This document shows, piece by piece, positions 6,942-34,426 of a stretch of DNA of 51,592 nt (within the stretch, counting starts at the first letter, position 1; the number at the start of each line of letters is the position of its first letter). Origin of the DNA: Globomyces pollinis-pini (lineage: Eukaryota > Chytridiomycota > Chytridiomycetes > Rhizophydiales > Globomycetaceae); contig MU621207.1 of assembly GCA_025399215.1 (NCBI GenBank), positions 504 to 52,095 on the forward strand. Reading direction: 5' to 3'. The notes beneath the pieces are model-generated. The model saw only the letters and a program-made list of their open reading frames with translations, had not been told where the DNA came from and ran no database searches. The position numbers and the translations under genes were made by a program.

Positions 6942-8535
6942 TTATTGATAAAAGGCCTCTGCCATCTCAATGGCGACGACGTTTGATTTCAACTTGTTTA
7001 TGGTTTCTTCATACTCAGCTTGAGGATCTGAATCATGTACAATTCCCCCACCAGCTTGCAAATACACATGGCCATCCTTGAAAAGCATTGTACGAATTGC
7101 AATGCAGGTATCAATACCACCTGAATAACCAAACGATCCAACGGCACCTGCATAAACTCCTCGTTTTTCTTTTTCCAATTCGTAAATAATCTGCATTGCA
7201 CGTACTTTTGGAGCTCCAGACACTGTCCCAGCAGGGAATATTGACCGAAATGCATCAAATGGTGTACAACCTTCGCGAAGTGTACCCGAAACATTACTGA
7301 CAATATGCATTACATGGGCATAACGTTCAATATGCATTAATGAATCTACAGTGACAGTTTTCGGATCACAAACTCGATTCACATCATTTCGACCTAAATC
7401 TACCAACATGACATGCTCTGATCGTTCTTTTAAATCCGAAATGAGATCTTTGGCTAATTCTATATCCTCTTCTTCATCCTTTCCACGTTTACGTGTACCT
7501 GCAATTGGATGCATATAAACTTCATTATTTTCTACTTTGACCAGCATTTCTGGTGATGCACCAACCTAGTGATTAACATGATTATTCCTTACCAATTGAA
7601 AGGTCCCGAAATCTACGTAAAACATGTATGGAGAGGGATTAACGGTGCGTAATTTTCTATATGCATTGAAAGGATGTAGATTTGTTCGTTTTTTGAGACG
7701 CTGTGATGGAACGGTTTGAATCACATCACCAGTTACAATAAAATCTTTAATTTGACTGACAAATTGTTTATAACCTTAATATACATCAATATGATAACTA
7801 TTTGAATACCTAAATCATTAAGAATTCATATTCTAAACCTTTCTCTCCCACGTTTGAAATTGGTTCTGAAGTAATCATTGGTCCTTGTTCTGGAACAGGA
7901 GTATTTGGATCATCCAATAAATTTTCAATTTCATTAATGGCATTTACTGCTTTCGTGTATGCAATTTCAATTTCTTTTGGTGATGCATTATCACTAAACA
8001 TAACGTTTGAGACCACTTTAATGACACTAAACAAATGGTCGAAAACAACAACGGTATCACACATCATTAATACAGCATCTGGTATTTTTAAAGTGTCTTT
8101 AGCATTGCATTTAGTAGTTGGTTCAAAATATTGTACACAATCATAGGAAATAAAACCAACAGCTCCACCTAACATTTAAGAATCTGATAAGATATACCAG
8201 TAAAAGAAGGTAGATTATCAACATTCACATATCTAACTTTGGACAATTCTTTTTCAATATCAATAATTGGATCCCCATCGAATCGATTTAAAACTTTCCT
8301 AGGTTCTACAATTGTTACTATACAACAAGATACTATTTCCAATAAACGAATATCTAGCAATTTTCTCACCACCCAATATTGATTCCAATAGAAATGAATT
8401 TACCATTGAATGTTTTGTTAATTTCAAATAAGCTGAAATTGGAGTGACTAAATCATTCTTTAATTGTTTAAATATTGGGATGGTGTTTCCTTTTGATTTC
8501 AATTCAAGTATTTGATTTAAAGACAGTGAAATCAT
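6942..8535 (-). CDS. trpE: Anthranilate synthase component I (chorismate-utilising)
   Basis: The exons 8535-8334, 8305-8198, 8168-7839, 7774-7593 and 7565-6942 splice into a 481-aa protein matching anthranilate synthase component I along its length. Seen are the N-terminal LLES..ARYSFIG segment, [68 protein letters not shown], and a C-terminal [12 protein letters not shown]. The enzyme converts chorismate to anthranilate, the first step of tryptophan synthesis, with a glutamine amidotransferase partner encoded elsewhere. The LLES motif belongs to the tryptophan feedback site, so feedback control is likely. The third intron (7775-7838) is a two-unit tandem intron. Reading its first unit as coding would introduce an in-frame stop. 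The organism is therefore probably a tryptophan prototroph. Confidence 0.95.
7775..7838 (-). other. Tandem two-unit intron in trpE (29 + 35 nt)
   Basis: On the minus strand this intron splits exactly into a GT...AG unit at 7838-7810 and a second at 7809-7775, joined at AG|GT with no exon base between. Only removal of both restores the frame ([15 protein letters not shown]), which is the expected anthranilate synthase sequence. Confidence 0.75.
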
Positions 8536-15510: not shown

Positions 15511-17261
15511 TTACTCATTGTCATCGACTGTTCTGTCTTCTTTGATACTCAATGCTTTTAGCTCTAAATAGTCAATTCAAGCTCAACTTTTTACCGTTTA
15601 AAAGTACTGGCTTTTCGGGTTTCAAATTCTCTGCAATTTGACTGATTGTTATCGAGGAATTAAATTATTTACTTGTACTCAATGACCAGAAATTGATATT
15701 GCTGTTCCTTAAGTTTCAATTGAGATTCCATCTGTCTGATGCTTTCTTTTTTCAATACAAAATCACTCTCCATGATTCGATTTTTTTCAAGGTAATTTTG
15801 ATATTTATCCTAAAGAAAATAAGAAAAGTGATGGAACTGACATTCAAATGTTTTATCGTTTCTTCTATCTTATCCTTTGTCACTTTGGGAACAAAGTCCG
15901 CGTCGCGATTGGACATTAAACTCTGTATTTCCTTGATTTTCTCTTTGATCAGTCGATCTTGCTCATCAATAATCTCATCCTTGGCCTTTAATGGATCACC
16001 TTCTAATGAAAAAAATGGACTCGTATCTAGTCGTCAGTTTCTTTGATAAAAAGACCAATATTTGCCAAAACTAAAAATTTCAATTAACCTCTAATTACAA
16101 TCATCATGGATTTTGTGTTGATTTAGTATTGCTTCTGGTATATATGATGCATAAGTTGACAATTTATATCTCATTTCAGATTTTAGTCTACATTTAGGAA
16201 CATTGAAGAATACTTTTCATTTTCCGCTACCCGTGTGAAGTGAGTGTTAGATACCTATTATGATGTAAGCTGTTAATAAAAGTACCTATACAAATAAGTC
16301 TATAGGATACAGTACCTTCGTGTAAAAGTTAAATGACTAAATACCTTTTAATTGATCAATCTGTTTGTTCAGATCTTGGCTTTTTTGTGTTTCAAATTTC
16401 AAAAGCATCCGATTTTCATTCTGTGCAAGCAGTTTTTGGACCTAAGAGTCAATGGGATTTTTTCTTGCCTTAGTTCTTAGAAATATAAATTCTTGTTCAT
16501 TCGATTCGTAACTGGATATAATTCTATCATATTCTTTCTAAAGAGTTATTAGGTACTATATATACTTTGATATCTGCCAAAATTGGAGCAAAACTGGTGA
16601 ATTCTTGAATAAGTTGTTCGAAGCAATTTGAATAAATACTCAATCTCTTCAAGTCAGGTCCACGTTCTGGACATTGATTCGCTTCCAATTCTTCTGCTAT
16701 ATACCTGTAATACTTTTTCAGGTGGTCTTGTTTTCCTTTATGGCTATGTCTTAGTTTTCTTCCACTACGAATAAAATCTGTATCTATATTTGTCATATTG
16801 CGATAAAGATCCAACTTTGTTAGAAACATCTTTGATTTGGGTAAGAATTTTGGAGCATGTAATCTGGTGGTTCCCTGTGGAGTATAATCGACTGTTTTTT
16901 TAGCTGGTTTGATTGAATCTCCTGATCCTTTGACAGCATCAAATGATTCCAAAATATCAAAAATGTCTTTTGAATCGCCCTGATCTCCAAAATGGCTAGT
17001 TTTTGGTTGAATCAATTTGAGAGATTGATTCATATGATTCTGATTCAAGTAACCATTTCTACCAGCTCTTTGTATAATATCTTTTTTCTGTTCACTTTCC
17101 ATTTTACCCAAATAGATACCGATTTTTTCGTGTCTCAATTTTGGTTGGACTCGATATTCGACCTGTCCTTTTCGATTTGATTGTGGTTTCTTTTCTTTTT
17201 GAGCCAATTTGAAAACTGGTTTCTGTTCATTTGGGTTAATGAAATCATTTGTGGTTCCCAT
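15511..17261 (-). CDS. TSNAXIP1-like coiled-coil protein (flagellum/sperm-associated family)
   Basis: The first exon (17261 to about 16530) encodes a basic N-terminal region and then a segment matching the TSNAXIP1 N-terminal domain: YRYIAEELEANQCPERGPDL, RLSIYSNCFEQLIQEF, FAPILADIK. Downstream exons encode a long coiled coil (LLAQNENRMLLKFETQKSQD; IDQLKAENEKLKSEMRYKLS; IIDEQDRLIKEKIKEIQSL) ending VDDNE-stop at 15511. The human relative binds translin-associated factor X and is testis-enriched; in protists the family tracks with cilia. A ciliary role is inferred. Exons between 16345 and 16187 include a 13-nt microexon flanked by an array of four consecutive intron units. A further 29-nt intron with an unusual GTCTTT donor (about 16028-16056) is needed to restore the frame. 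Confidence 0.75.
16188..16344 (-). other. Four-unit tandem intron, 13-nt microexon and 26-nt intron
   Basis: Reading the minus strand, four GT...AG units follow one another with no exon bases between: 16344-16316 (29 nt), 16315-16286 (30 nt), 16285-16255 (31 nt) and 16254-16227 (28 nt). A 13-nt exon (16226-16214) and a 26-nt intron (16213-16188) come next. Splicing this way gives QIDQLKAENEKLKSEMRYKL, a perfect coiled-coil heptad pattern in frame with both flanking exons. Internal stops exclude translating through. Confidence 0.75.
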
Positions 17262-17675
17262 TGCTCTCCAACGCTAATTAAGTTAGGATTGTAGTACACT
17301 TTACATTAATACTTGACTCCATGATATAATTTTTTGAGTAGTGAAATTGGATTTGTTATTATTGGAGTTGTTTGTCAACAATAACATTATAATCTCAATA
17401 CAAGACCAAAAAGACTTTATTACTTGTTATATCCTATTTACTACTAGAATAGATGACATTAGTGAGTGATTTAATAAAGAGAGAATCCGAAGTTTTACTA
17501 ACGATCATTCATTCACATCCTTCCTTATCCTTCCTTCATCAATCCTTGATTCGGATTCTTTGAAATGTTTCATGAAATCTAGCATTTTGATTGGTCAACA
17601 ATTCCGGGGTTTCTTGTGTTTTTTCCGAATATGCTCCATATAAAACTTGACTGTTAAAAATCACATTCTACTGAT
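17262..17675. other. Divergent promoter region TSNAXIP1-like / phytochelatin synthase
   Basis: This is intergenic and AT-rich. No gene or clear regulatory motif was recognised. A TATA-like TATAAAA lies at about 17639-17645, some 30 bp before the phytochelatin synthase ATG. Confidence 0.45.
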
Positions 17676-31832: not shown

Positions 31833-33037
31833 TTAATTATCTTCCAACAACCGACGAAGTTTCTCAGAAACATCATCAATTTCATTGAATACAAATGAGT
31901 CAGTGACAGATTCAGTACGGATCGTTTCTTTGGGAATTACTGGTGCAGAGTTGGTTACGCGACTAGAATAGTCGTTAGCAGTACGTTCACTCCTAAAATT
32001 TTGTGAATAGTTATCAACAACTTCAGGGGTACGTTCTCGTCTTTGATTAGGATTAAATTCCTCCACAACTTCAGGAGTACGTTCACGTCTTGAAGAACGT
32101 TCAGAACGAATTGGCGTTACGCTTTCTGATTGTTGATAATCTTGATTCACCGGCTCAGGTTTACGTTGTATATTCTGTGGTGATTCTGGTTCTTTGGCAA
32201 TTGGCTGTTTTGGCAGTGGTTGATTAGGGACTGGTTGATTAATAGATTGTGGTTCAGCAGCAATAGCATTTCCATCTGCTGGCATATCCGGATAGATTCC
32301 ACCAATTTCTCTAGTTCCACCAAACCGCATTCCTTTTTGTGATGCCCCTAGAAATATAAATTTCGATATTTATAGATACCTGAATAGTTAAATTATGATA
32401 GCGAAATACCTTGAGTGTATCCTTGCAACAAAGGAACCGCAAATTTAGCTTGTGCAATCTGCTCTTCAGTAAATGTACGAACATTCTTTTCAGCCAACTT
32501 TGGACCTAAAATTGGACCGTTATATCCTTTTTTGTTTGCCATTCTTGATACTGCAAAAATACAATCAATCACCTGAATATAAATAGAAAGTAACCATTAC
32601 CTGATTCATATTTTTTTCCTCATACAAATCGATAGTTTGGAAAGACTCGAATGAAGGAACACCTAATTCTTCGATAGCAGCTAAAAAACTGGCAATATTT
32701 TCCTAAACAATTGATTAGAAGAGAAAGCATACCATTTGCCTAAAAGCTAACCTGGAAGTAGTTGGTTTGATTGGGTTTCTGTTTGGCATTAAGATGTTTA
32801 TGGCAGTGCAGAGAACGATACCATCATGGAGGGCTAAAAGGGTCAAAGCAAGTAGAAATGAATACCTTTATGATTAATACTTTTATTATATTTACCTTCA
32901 GCAAAAGTACCCATGAGTTGAATACCAGTGATTGATTGCAACCAATCTCTCGCTTCCGCTTCTCTTTCAGGAGAGTATTTTGCTTTTGCTTTTAGTTTTA
33001 AATCCTCATCGAGAGTAGTGTGAGTTTTTAGTTGCAT
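31833..33037 (-). CDS. Calponin-homology/transgelin-like actin-binding protein
   Basis: Starting at the ATG at 33037, exons spliced over five or so introns give a single type-3 calponin homology domain: AEARDWLQSITGIQL, ALHDGIVLCTAINIL, SRLAFRQMENIASFLAA, LGVPSFESFQTIDLYE, and a final VIDCIFAVSRMANKKG. A calponin-like repeat follows (LLQGYTQGASQKGMRFGGTR), then a disordered Pro/Gln/Arg-rich tail with repeated RRERTPEVV elements, ending RRLLEDN. The layout is that of yeast Scp1/Stg1 and transgelin, which bundle F-actin in cortical patches. The tail (~150 residues) is longer than in yeast Scp1. Two of the introns (32834-32895 and 32348-32409) are each made of two consecutive intron units. Confidence 0.88.
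32348..32409 (-). other. Tandem two-unit intron (30 + 32 nt) in the calponin-like gene
   Basis: On the minus strand the units are 32409-32380 and 32379-32348, meeting at AG|GT with no exon base between. Removing both restores QGYTQGASQKGMRFGG, the calponin-like repeat. Confidence 0.72.
32834..32895 (-). other. Tandem two-unit intron (30 + 32 nt) in the calponin-like gene
   Basis: On the minus strand the units are 32895-32866 and 32865-32834, meeting at AG|GT. Removing both restores FAEALHDGIVLC of the calponin homology domain. The unit lengths (30 + 32) are identical to the second tandem intron of this gene. Confidence 0.72.
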
Positions 33038-33393: not shown

Positions 33394-34426
33394 ATGGCTA
33401 TTGGACCTCATGTACCAGAAGATCAAGAAATCTCACTGGTTTTCACAAGGTAAACCTTATCATAATCTTATCCTTTTAGGTTAGTACCAATTTACTAATT
33501 TCATTCAATTAGGTTTCTTCATGTCCTTTAGTTTATTTATGTTTAATTAGTTTAAAGAATGATTTTGTAGAAAAAAGGTTGGAATTTAGAGGGGATTCAG
33601 TAAGAGTCTTACGTATCGGTGCCAAAAGAAGAAATAGGAGACTAAATGGTATTTTAAAACTCATTTGAATCAATTTGATTTACTATCAATATCATTATTC
33701 ATTGTTTCTTTCTATAGAATCACTAATGATTAGACATGTTTGATGATCATCCGATGCAACCAAACAAAGATCCAAATTTTGTAGAAGCAAGAGATCTATT
33801 GCCAGGTAATCCACAATGAATACCAATGAAATACTAGGATATCCAAATCTAAAACAACCTAGCCCATTTGCTCTTATGGAATCAGATCCAAAAGAATTTC
33901 CTATTGAATTAAGTCAACCAACCACTCAATCTGTAATCAAAACAGGTAAATTATCATTCAATCATACTCAAAATGTTTAGGTCCATCAAATTTAACAAAG
34001 AATGATCTATCACTAAGGAAGCATGTTCGTAGACATCAATGTGACGAACCAATGCTTCGAGATTTTGAATTTGAAATCACCGCTTTCTTAAAACGTTTAA
34101 TTAACAAAGAAGAAGATTATGAAATGGATATGACTGTTTCAGATATCGATTCAGTATCAGATGATGAAGGTTGGATTTCGTTAATGTCAACCGATCCTGA
34201 TCGTAAACACCAATTGTTGATTAAAATCAATAACTCATTTTTGAGATTATTGGTTCATTCTATGTGTCGTTATTATTGTCTTACCTCTACCAGTATTTGT
34301 ATCTTATTAACATCAGGTGTAAATGAAGGTGGTGAACGCATCACTATTATTGAAGCCCCTCTTTCTATCGTTACCAAATCTTATACTTTTCCTCCTTGTT
34401 CTTTTTCAGACTTTTTTTTCGAGTAA
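33394..34426 (+). CDS. R3H-domain protein, R3HDM4-like (R3H-associated N-terminal domain)
   Basis: After removal of introns the protein begins MAIGPHVPEDQEISLVFT and continues SLKNDFVEKRLEFRGDSV, RVLRIGAKRRNRRLN. This is the R3H-associated N-terminal region, with its invariant KR.E.RG and GA.RRNR. The middle has LRKHVRRHQCDEPMLRDFEF. The C-terminus is an R3H-like domain: FLRLLVHSMCRYYCLTSTS, then after an intron VNEGGERITIIEAP. The classical R-x3-H is here R-x3-H in RLLVH. R3H domains bind single-stranded nucleic acid; the cellular role of this subfamily is not established. The first intron (33450-33550) consists of three consecutive intron units. At least five further short introns are inferred. 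Confidence 0.75.
33450..33550 (+). other. Three-unit tandem intron (30 + 33 + 38 nt) in the R3H gene
   Basis: Units 33450-33479, 33480-33512 and 33513-33550 each start GT and end AG, with no exon base between. Joining 33449 to 33551 restores VFTSLKNDFVEKRLEFRGD in frame. Internal stops exclude read-through of the whole stretch. Confidence 0.7.

Follow-up and report, generated by a model that had tools for sequence, protein, structure and literature searches.

Tandem arrays of predicted minimal introns without intervening exons in the chytrid Globomyces pollinis-pini

A stretch of 118 nt within a coding region of Globomyces pollinis-pini divides exactly into four predicted introns with no exon between them, and comparable arrays, ranging from two to twelve predicted introns with units of about 29 nt, occur elsewhere in the genome. 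We consider it probable, on the sequence evidence set out below, that this ladder comprises four complete minimal introns that are likely to be removed separately through intron definition and that such arrays grow by tandem duplication. The wider proposition, to which we attach rather less assurance while still judging it the better supported view, is that introns multiply in place in the manner of minisatellites, as tandem copies that would each be spliced in a reaction of their own and would diverge with their signals kept, giving hundreds of arrays, the longest with 12 or more introns in a row and no exon between them. Intron gain is a long-standing open question, and here one genome presents near-identical, partly diverged, and fully diverged arrays together.

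The ladder and its host gene

The window, by which we mean the whole 51,592-nt stretch of contig MU621207.1 that was analyzed, carries the ladder on the minus strand at 16344-16227, where the 118 nt resolve into exactly four GT...AG units of 29, 30, 31, and 28 nt; all three unit boundaries are AG|GT, with zero-length exons between the units. This exact tiling bears out the coordinates, lengths, and AG|GT fusion proposed in an earlier sequence-only reading, and the 13-nt microexon and 26-nt intron that the same reading placed after the ladder were also confirmed, at 16226-16214 and 16213-16188, with a frame backed by a paralogue and by a deposited protein (Table 1). The spliced protein of the ladder gene has 98% identity to a deposited Globomyces pollinis-pini hypothetical protein with Pfam PF15739, which we take to be the TSNAXIP1 N-terminal family. 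The architecture, in which units resembling minimal introns are joined through zero-length exons, would suit stepwise removal, as had been suggested. It had further been supposed that each AG|GT junction would regenerate a donor after excision of the upstream unit; the junctions are present, but regeneration is not needed, since each unit already possesses its own GT and AG, and the units could thus leave in any order.

Table 1. Coordinates of the ladder, neighboring features of its gene, and other arrays called in the window
Feature	Position in window	Strand	Details
Ladder unit 1	16316..16344	-	29 nt, GTATTT...CGAAG; exact GT..AG; best branch-like motif 3.39, 11 nt before end
Ladder unit 2	16286..16315	-	30 nt, GTACTG...TATAG; exact GT..AG; branch-like motif 1.77, lowest of four
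Ladder unit 3	16255..16285	-	31 nt, GTACTT...AATAG; exact GT..AG; branch-like motif 3.16, 16 nt before end
Ladder unit 4	16227..16254	-	28 nt, GTATCT...GGTAG; exact GT..AG; branch-like motif 3.18, 12 nt before end
Microexon CGGAAAATGAAAA, 13 nt	16214..16226	-	Part of QLKAENEKLKSEM in deposited protein P0001; matching codons in C140 paralogue without 118-nt insert
Intron, 26 nt	16188..16213	-	28-nt intron at same place and codon phase in C140 paralogue
Coding exon upstream of ladder, 97 nt	16345..16441	-	Spliced gene model
GC-AG intron, 27 nt	16442..16468	-	GT-AG intron at same place in C140 paralogue
Intron of ladder gene, 28 nt	16538..16565	-	Spliced gene model
First intron of ladder gene, 31 nt	17274..17304	-	Spliced gene model
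Intron of ladder gene, 28 nt	16071..16098	-	Spliced gene model
Intron of ladder gene, 29 nt	16027..16055	-	Spliced gene model
Array, 29+35 nt	7775..7838	-	Anthranilate synthase I-like gene; gene finder
Array, 30+32 nt	32834..32895	-	Inside calponin-homology domain; gene finder
Array, 30+32 nt	32348..32409	-	Same calponin-homology gene as 32834..32895; gene finder
Array called as 30+71 nt, readable as 30+33+38 nt	33450..33550	+	Gene finder

The join between the flanking exons was examined through two comparisons. Contig C140 carries a paralogue with 72% identity to the window gene over 346 bases; it encodes QLTEENNKIKSEM through the ladder position with no insert. Removal from the window gene of seven stretches, the 118 nt counting as one of them, gives a product identical to residues 1-398 of the 476 residues of deposited protein P0001, including QLKAENEKLKSEM; the comparison stops at residue 398, and further introns beyond that point were left in. 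The uninterrupted paralogue and the match to P0001 together indicate that the 118 nt have no counterpart in the paralogue and are left out of the predicted mRNA. Their presence in the window copy and absence from the paralogue would be compatible with either gain in the former or loss in the latter, and the frame evidence would fit removal in four steps and in one step alike.

Arrays across the genome

The assembly comprises 18.5 Mb in 459 contigs. A simple gene finder of our own, whose calls are predictions from sequence, was trained on the window together with C1:1-200000 and C140:9000-18000 (260,593 bases); it has an intron ceiling of 250 nt and includes a cost for each intron, models without that cost being absurd, and a gene score of at least 8 was required in the run on this 260-kb sample. 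It returned 629 introns in 91 genes, and 97% of these introns (609) were of 23-38 nt, with a mode at 28-29 nt. Among 610 intron sites in the 260 kb, 13 were arrays with zero-length exons, called as nine doubles, two triples, and two quadruples. The window accounts for 5 of the 13, one of them being the reason for its selection, and the remaining 209 kb hold 8; if the sample is representative, the whole genome would contain several hundred. With four more arrays called in the window (Table 1), the ladder at 16344-16227 is not unique.

The frequency with which such tilings would be expected was gauged in several ways. Only 127 of 200,000 dinucleotide shuffles of the 118-nt stretch could be tiled into GT..AG units of 23-38 nt. 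When chaining was forbidden, 20 of the 613 introns placed by the gene finder measured 45-150 nt; exact tiling into 23-38-nt units was found in 9 of these 20 long introns, compared with an expectation of 0.57 when each was dinucleotide-shuffled 2000 times, and 11 did not tile. A genome-wide count that requires no gene model gave 383 pairs of TAGGTA at spacings of 23-38 nt versus 55 at 39-54 nt, of which 19, judged by eye, span an inner TAGGTA, whereas the same pattern read backward, which is commoner, showed no spacing preference (294 at 23-38 nt and 279 at 39-54 nt). Triples of TAGGTA at intron spacing occupied 105 places versus 12 for the control, and the 100 places listed of these 105 resolved into 61 distinct arrays. 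The window array has just two TAGGTA junctions and cannot, therefore, be among the triples; arrays joined at junctions of another kind escape this count.

From among the longer arrays, ten were taken first and tiled by us, and the ends of the arrays of 12, 10, and 7 units were re-read against the frame. The tilings gave 12 units over 365 nt in a MARK/Snf1-like kinase gene (C102), 10 in a PhyH gene (C12), 8 in C194, 7 in C225, 6 each in C10, C152, C43, C94, and C68, and 5 in C4. The gene finder divided the 12-unit array into five blocks, one of 190 nt, the 10-unit array into seven, one of 117 nt, and the 7-unit array into four. The gene models at C194, C225, and C94 scored low (8, 9, and 4; with edge starts 12, 12, and 7). 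The arrays at C194:3382-3560 (8 units) and C225:6566-6725 (7 units) resemble diverged minisatellites, and their gene scores are low in the short stretches fetched.

The kinase array, C102:4043-3679, interrupts the codon that follows NVKIT, and the reading continues in frame with DFGLSN, which contains the DFG motif; a Boothiomyces relative reads NIKISDFGLSN at this site, and MARK3 (2qnj_A) aligns through the junction with the edited query. Among the best 7994 candidates scored, no same-species protein matched the 12-unit kinase gene at E <1e-150, a search in which a fragment could be missed. Paralogous kinases are present in the genome. In ten proteins from array-bearing genes that were tested at an early stage, a Pfam domain spans the junction in five (CH, Kinesin, SEN1_N, PhyH, and Pkinase); the Chorismate_bind, MCM, adh_short, and Myb matches start at or after the junction, and the Usp match falls under its cut-off.

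A second batch consisted of twelve arrays taken in listing order, with just those already fetched being skipped. Every one of them coincides at least partly with an intron in a predicted gene, and tiling is complete in all but L040 (11 of 12). Two gene models scored under the cut-off of 8 (L042, 2; L045, 5), and the model for L039 ends 18 nt past the array. A Pfam domain above its cut-off spans the junction in 6 of 10 proteins, namely, DCP1, DUF2340, ANAPC8, Ins_P5_2-kin, UQ_con, and RRM_1 (CSTF2-like), the DCP1 protein being one of the two low-scoring models; L041 gave no Pfam match, and those of L039 (WD40), L043 (RRM_1), and L046 (CS) do not usefully cross the junction. In the APC8/Cdc23-like gene at L047 (C38:54550-55850), three separate arrays of 4, 2, and 2 units were called in a short stretch.

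Removal and origin of the units

We suggest that each unit of the ladder is a complete minimal intron and that the spliceosome would take the units out separately, in any order, to yield the same mRNA. Removal unit by unit through intron definition would be expected because nearly all called introns are 23-38 nt long and the units come with a donor, a branch-like motif, and an acceptor of their own. Neighboring units would probably leave one after another rather than together, since splice complexes assembled on neighbors would overlap at AG|GT. Arrays may grow when a whole intron is copied locally in tandem; each copy would be tolerated because it would itself be spliceable, and would then diverge while selection acts on its splice signals.

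The same product would arise if the 118 nt were one intron, spliced out once between the outermost donor and the outermost acceptor, with the internal AG|GT sites being relics or unused; we regard this as unlikely. A single reaction would need the branch point of the last unit alone, and for this reason the all-but-last units were tested, using a YTRAY-like branch motif that was derived from 579 single introns and lies at a median of 6 nt from the end. The score was 2.83 for the 68 all-but-last units of 12 arrays, compared with 2.82 for single introns and 1.64 for shuffled sequences (z 7.6). As copies inherit motifs, the test was repeated on the seven arrays whose neighboring units show no clear overall homology, where the score was 2.79 versus 1.59 for shuffled sequences; in the second batch, where tiled, it was 2.87 versus 1.91, and in each case 0 of 1000 shuffles reached the observed value. 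Diverged arrays thus retain motifs of single-intron strength in the units that one-step excision would not employ. GT..AG spans scored 1.52 inside one-piece long introns (7 spans in 10 introns) and 1.17 in coding sequence (425 sampled). Most of the arrays tested were picked by TAGGTA, which biases the unit ends and not the branch region. The length of TAGGTA-bounded units, with a mean of 29.7 nt in the first 100 listed places, likewise matches that of single introns (28.5 nt), and tilings of arrays reach 285 and 365 nt, beyond the 250-nt ceiling up to which the gene finder can call one-piece introns.

In the window ladder itself, most motifs are further from the end than is usual: the best motif lies 3-10 nt from the end in one of the four units, versus 85% of single introns, and unit 2 is weak. 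The sample also contains ten calls of one-piece introns measuring 46-118 nt, together with eight unchecked calls of 193-244 nt; these calls, and the long introns that do not tile, make removal of the 118 nt in one step possible. Taken together, the branch motifs and unit lengths argue that the units have been kept as introns. The best reading is that the predicted units are probably removed sequentially.

With regard to origin, neighboring units are clearly homologous in 5 of 12 arrays (C12, C68, C194, C225, and C152); C12 has two identical 28-nt units, and C68 has similar units of 27 nt. There was no clear homology between neighbors in the window array, C1, C10, C43, C94, or C4, and C102 has one similar pair (z 4.2). 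The window units are mutually dissimilar (z 0.2, -0.3, and 0.7) and too diverged to reveal their origin, but the homology within other arrays points to local tandem duplication followed by divergence as the simplest account. The sequence-only reading had proposed repeated insertion of minimal introns into a donor site; on the evidence of the other arrays, we favor local duplication, as five of the 12 have homologous neighbors and the two units examined, one from C68 and one from C12, had no match in the genome outside their own array at up to 3 mismatches.

These observations also bear on the possibility that the units derive from repeated insertion of a mobile intron, or introner, at AG|GT targets, which we consider improbable. 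Introners resemble the arrays in that introns multiply within a genome (PMC9860276), but their copies are inserted in many genes, whereas the two Globomyces units tested match locally only, and a dispersed origin is accordingly disfavored. The dissimilarity of the window units is in keeping with separate insertions, as is the nature of the preceding exon, which ends in AG in 9 of 13 arrays in the sample versus 184 of 579 single introns (p 0.012). The proportion in the later two sets was 9 of 22 (p 0.36), giving, when counted by eye, 18 of 35 overall (p 0.025); because the excess is not significant in the later 22 arrays, we treat a possible involvement of AG microhomology as a weak lead.

It is very improbable that the ladder is a nested stwintron of the type known from other fungi, in which one intron sits within another and breaks up one of the splice elements of the outer intron. 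Stwintrons, which have been described in ascomycetes (PMC7138796) and include sensu lato forms in Lipomyces, share with the ladder the general logic of a complex fungal intervening sequence excised by consecutive standard reactions, predicted in our case; however, they are nested pairs with a split or neighboring donor, whereas the Globomyces units lie side by side, have no split element, and can number more than two. The defining interrupted donor, branch element, or acceptor is not found, and a complete AG and a complete GT abut at all three junctions. Finally, doubles are individually weak evidence (shuffle p of 0.033-0.22 for six doubles), but chance tiling at AG|GT is rejected on the gene-model-free spacing counts and the shuffles, and an artifact of gene prediction is scarcely credible for a window array with a paralogue and a deposited protein and for junctions crossed by conserved domains.

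The predicted removal of the units as separate introns invites comparison with recursive splicing in Drosophila and vertebrates, in which an acceptor abuts a donor, leaving a zero-nucleotide exon, and removal is segmental (PMC8605326 and PMC10156609). The same juxtaposition of acceptor and donor around a zero-length exon is found at the three AG|GT junctions. Subdivision of a long intron, the usual if not strictly defining context of recursive splicing, is not found in a 118-nt stretch with units of 28-31 nt; ratchet points of Drosophila are described in long introns (PMC8605326), and a human lariat study reports recursive splicing over a broader range of intron sizes (PMC10156609). The Globomyces arrays differ in that the segments are minimal introns of about 29 nt and number up to 12. 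The array of dual-specific splice sites in human UBC offers another parallel: tandem AGGT sites delimit repeat units (PMC10809524), as they do around each unit of the ladder at the level of sequence, and the repeats are linked to splicing. The UBC repeats are coding and variably kept, whereas the Globomyces units are noncoding and all are predicted to be removed. In intron gain by tandem duplication, splice sites are likewise supplied by local duplication (PMC4974935), but there an AGGT-containing exonic or boundary segment gives rise to one intron, whereas in Globomyces whole introns appear to have been copied in tandem.

The statement in the earlier reading that a four-unit ladder had not been described in fungi agrees with our search of the open-licence literature, a part of the whole, in which we found no description of a multi-unit fungal intron ladder; nor did that literature yield a description of an intron-gain route by array growth or of serial splicing on such a scale. 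The arrays provide natural tests of whether a spliceosome tuned to introns of about 29 nt removes as many as 12 singly and of acceptor and donor complexes that must share four bases.

Consequences for gene models

Gene models in genomes of this kind are at risk. The deposited models for Globomyces pollinis-pini, presumably the product of the JGI pipeline, include a PhyH protein (P0014) that carries VLIVTINFLGIQSIILIFK, the 19-residue translation of units 4 and 8 of the 10-unit array at C12:42111-42255 (L028), at a position where the PhyH homologues P0015, P0016, and P0018 read FKQP directly. We take the extra residues to be a modeling error, and they could represent an isoform; as P0014 keeps units 4 and 8, there is one annotation or isoform from which not all units are removed. 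No second genomic copy of PhyH with a different number of units was found in the genome.

Short exons are affected as well. In Globomyces sp. JEL0801, protein P0002 is a close match to the window gene and P0008 is a close match to the paralogue, and both are without these short exons, from which it follows that automated models can miss them; P0002 reads as the poorer gene model. The deposited paralogue protein P0003 (DSILNQPDNKK) implies, as judged by eye, a non-GT-AG junction at L002 ~1976-2045, where an alternative GT-AG reading ending at CCAG would give in-frame ILNELDNKK.
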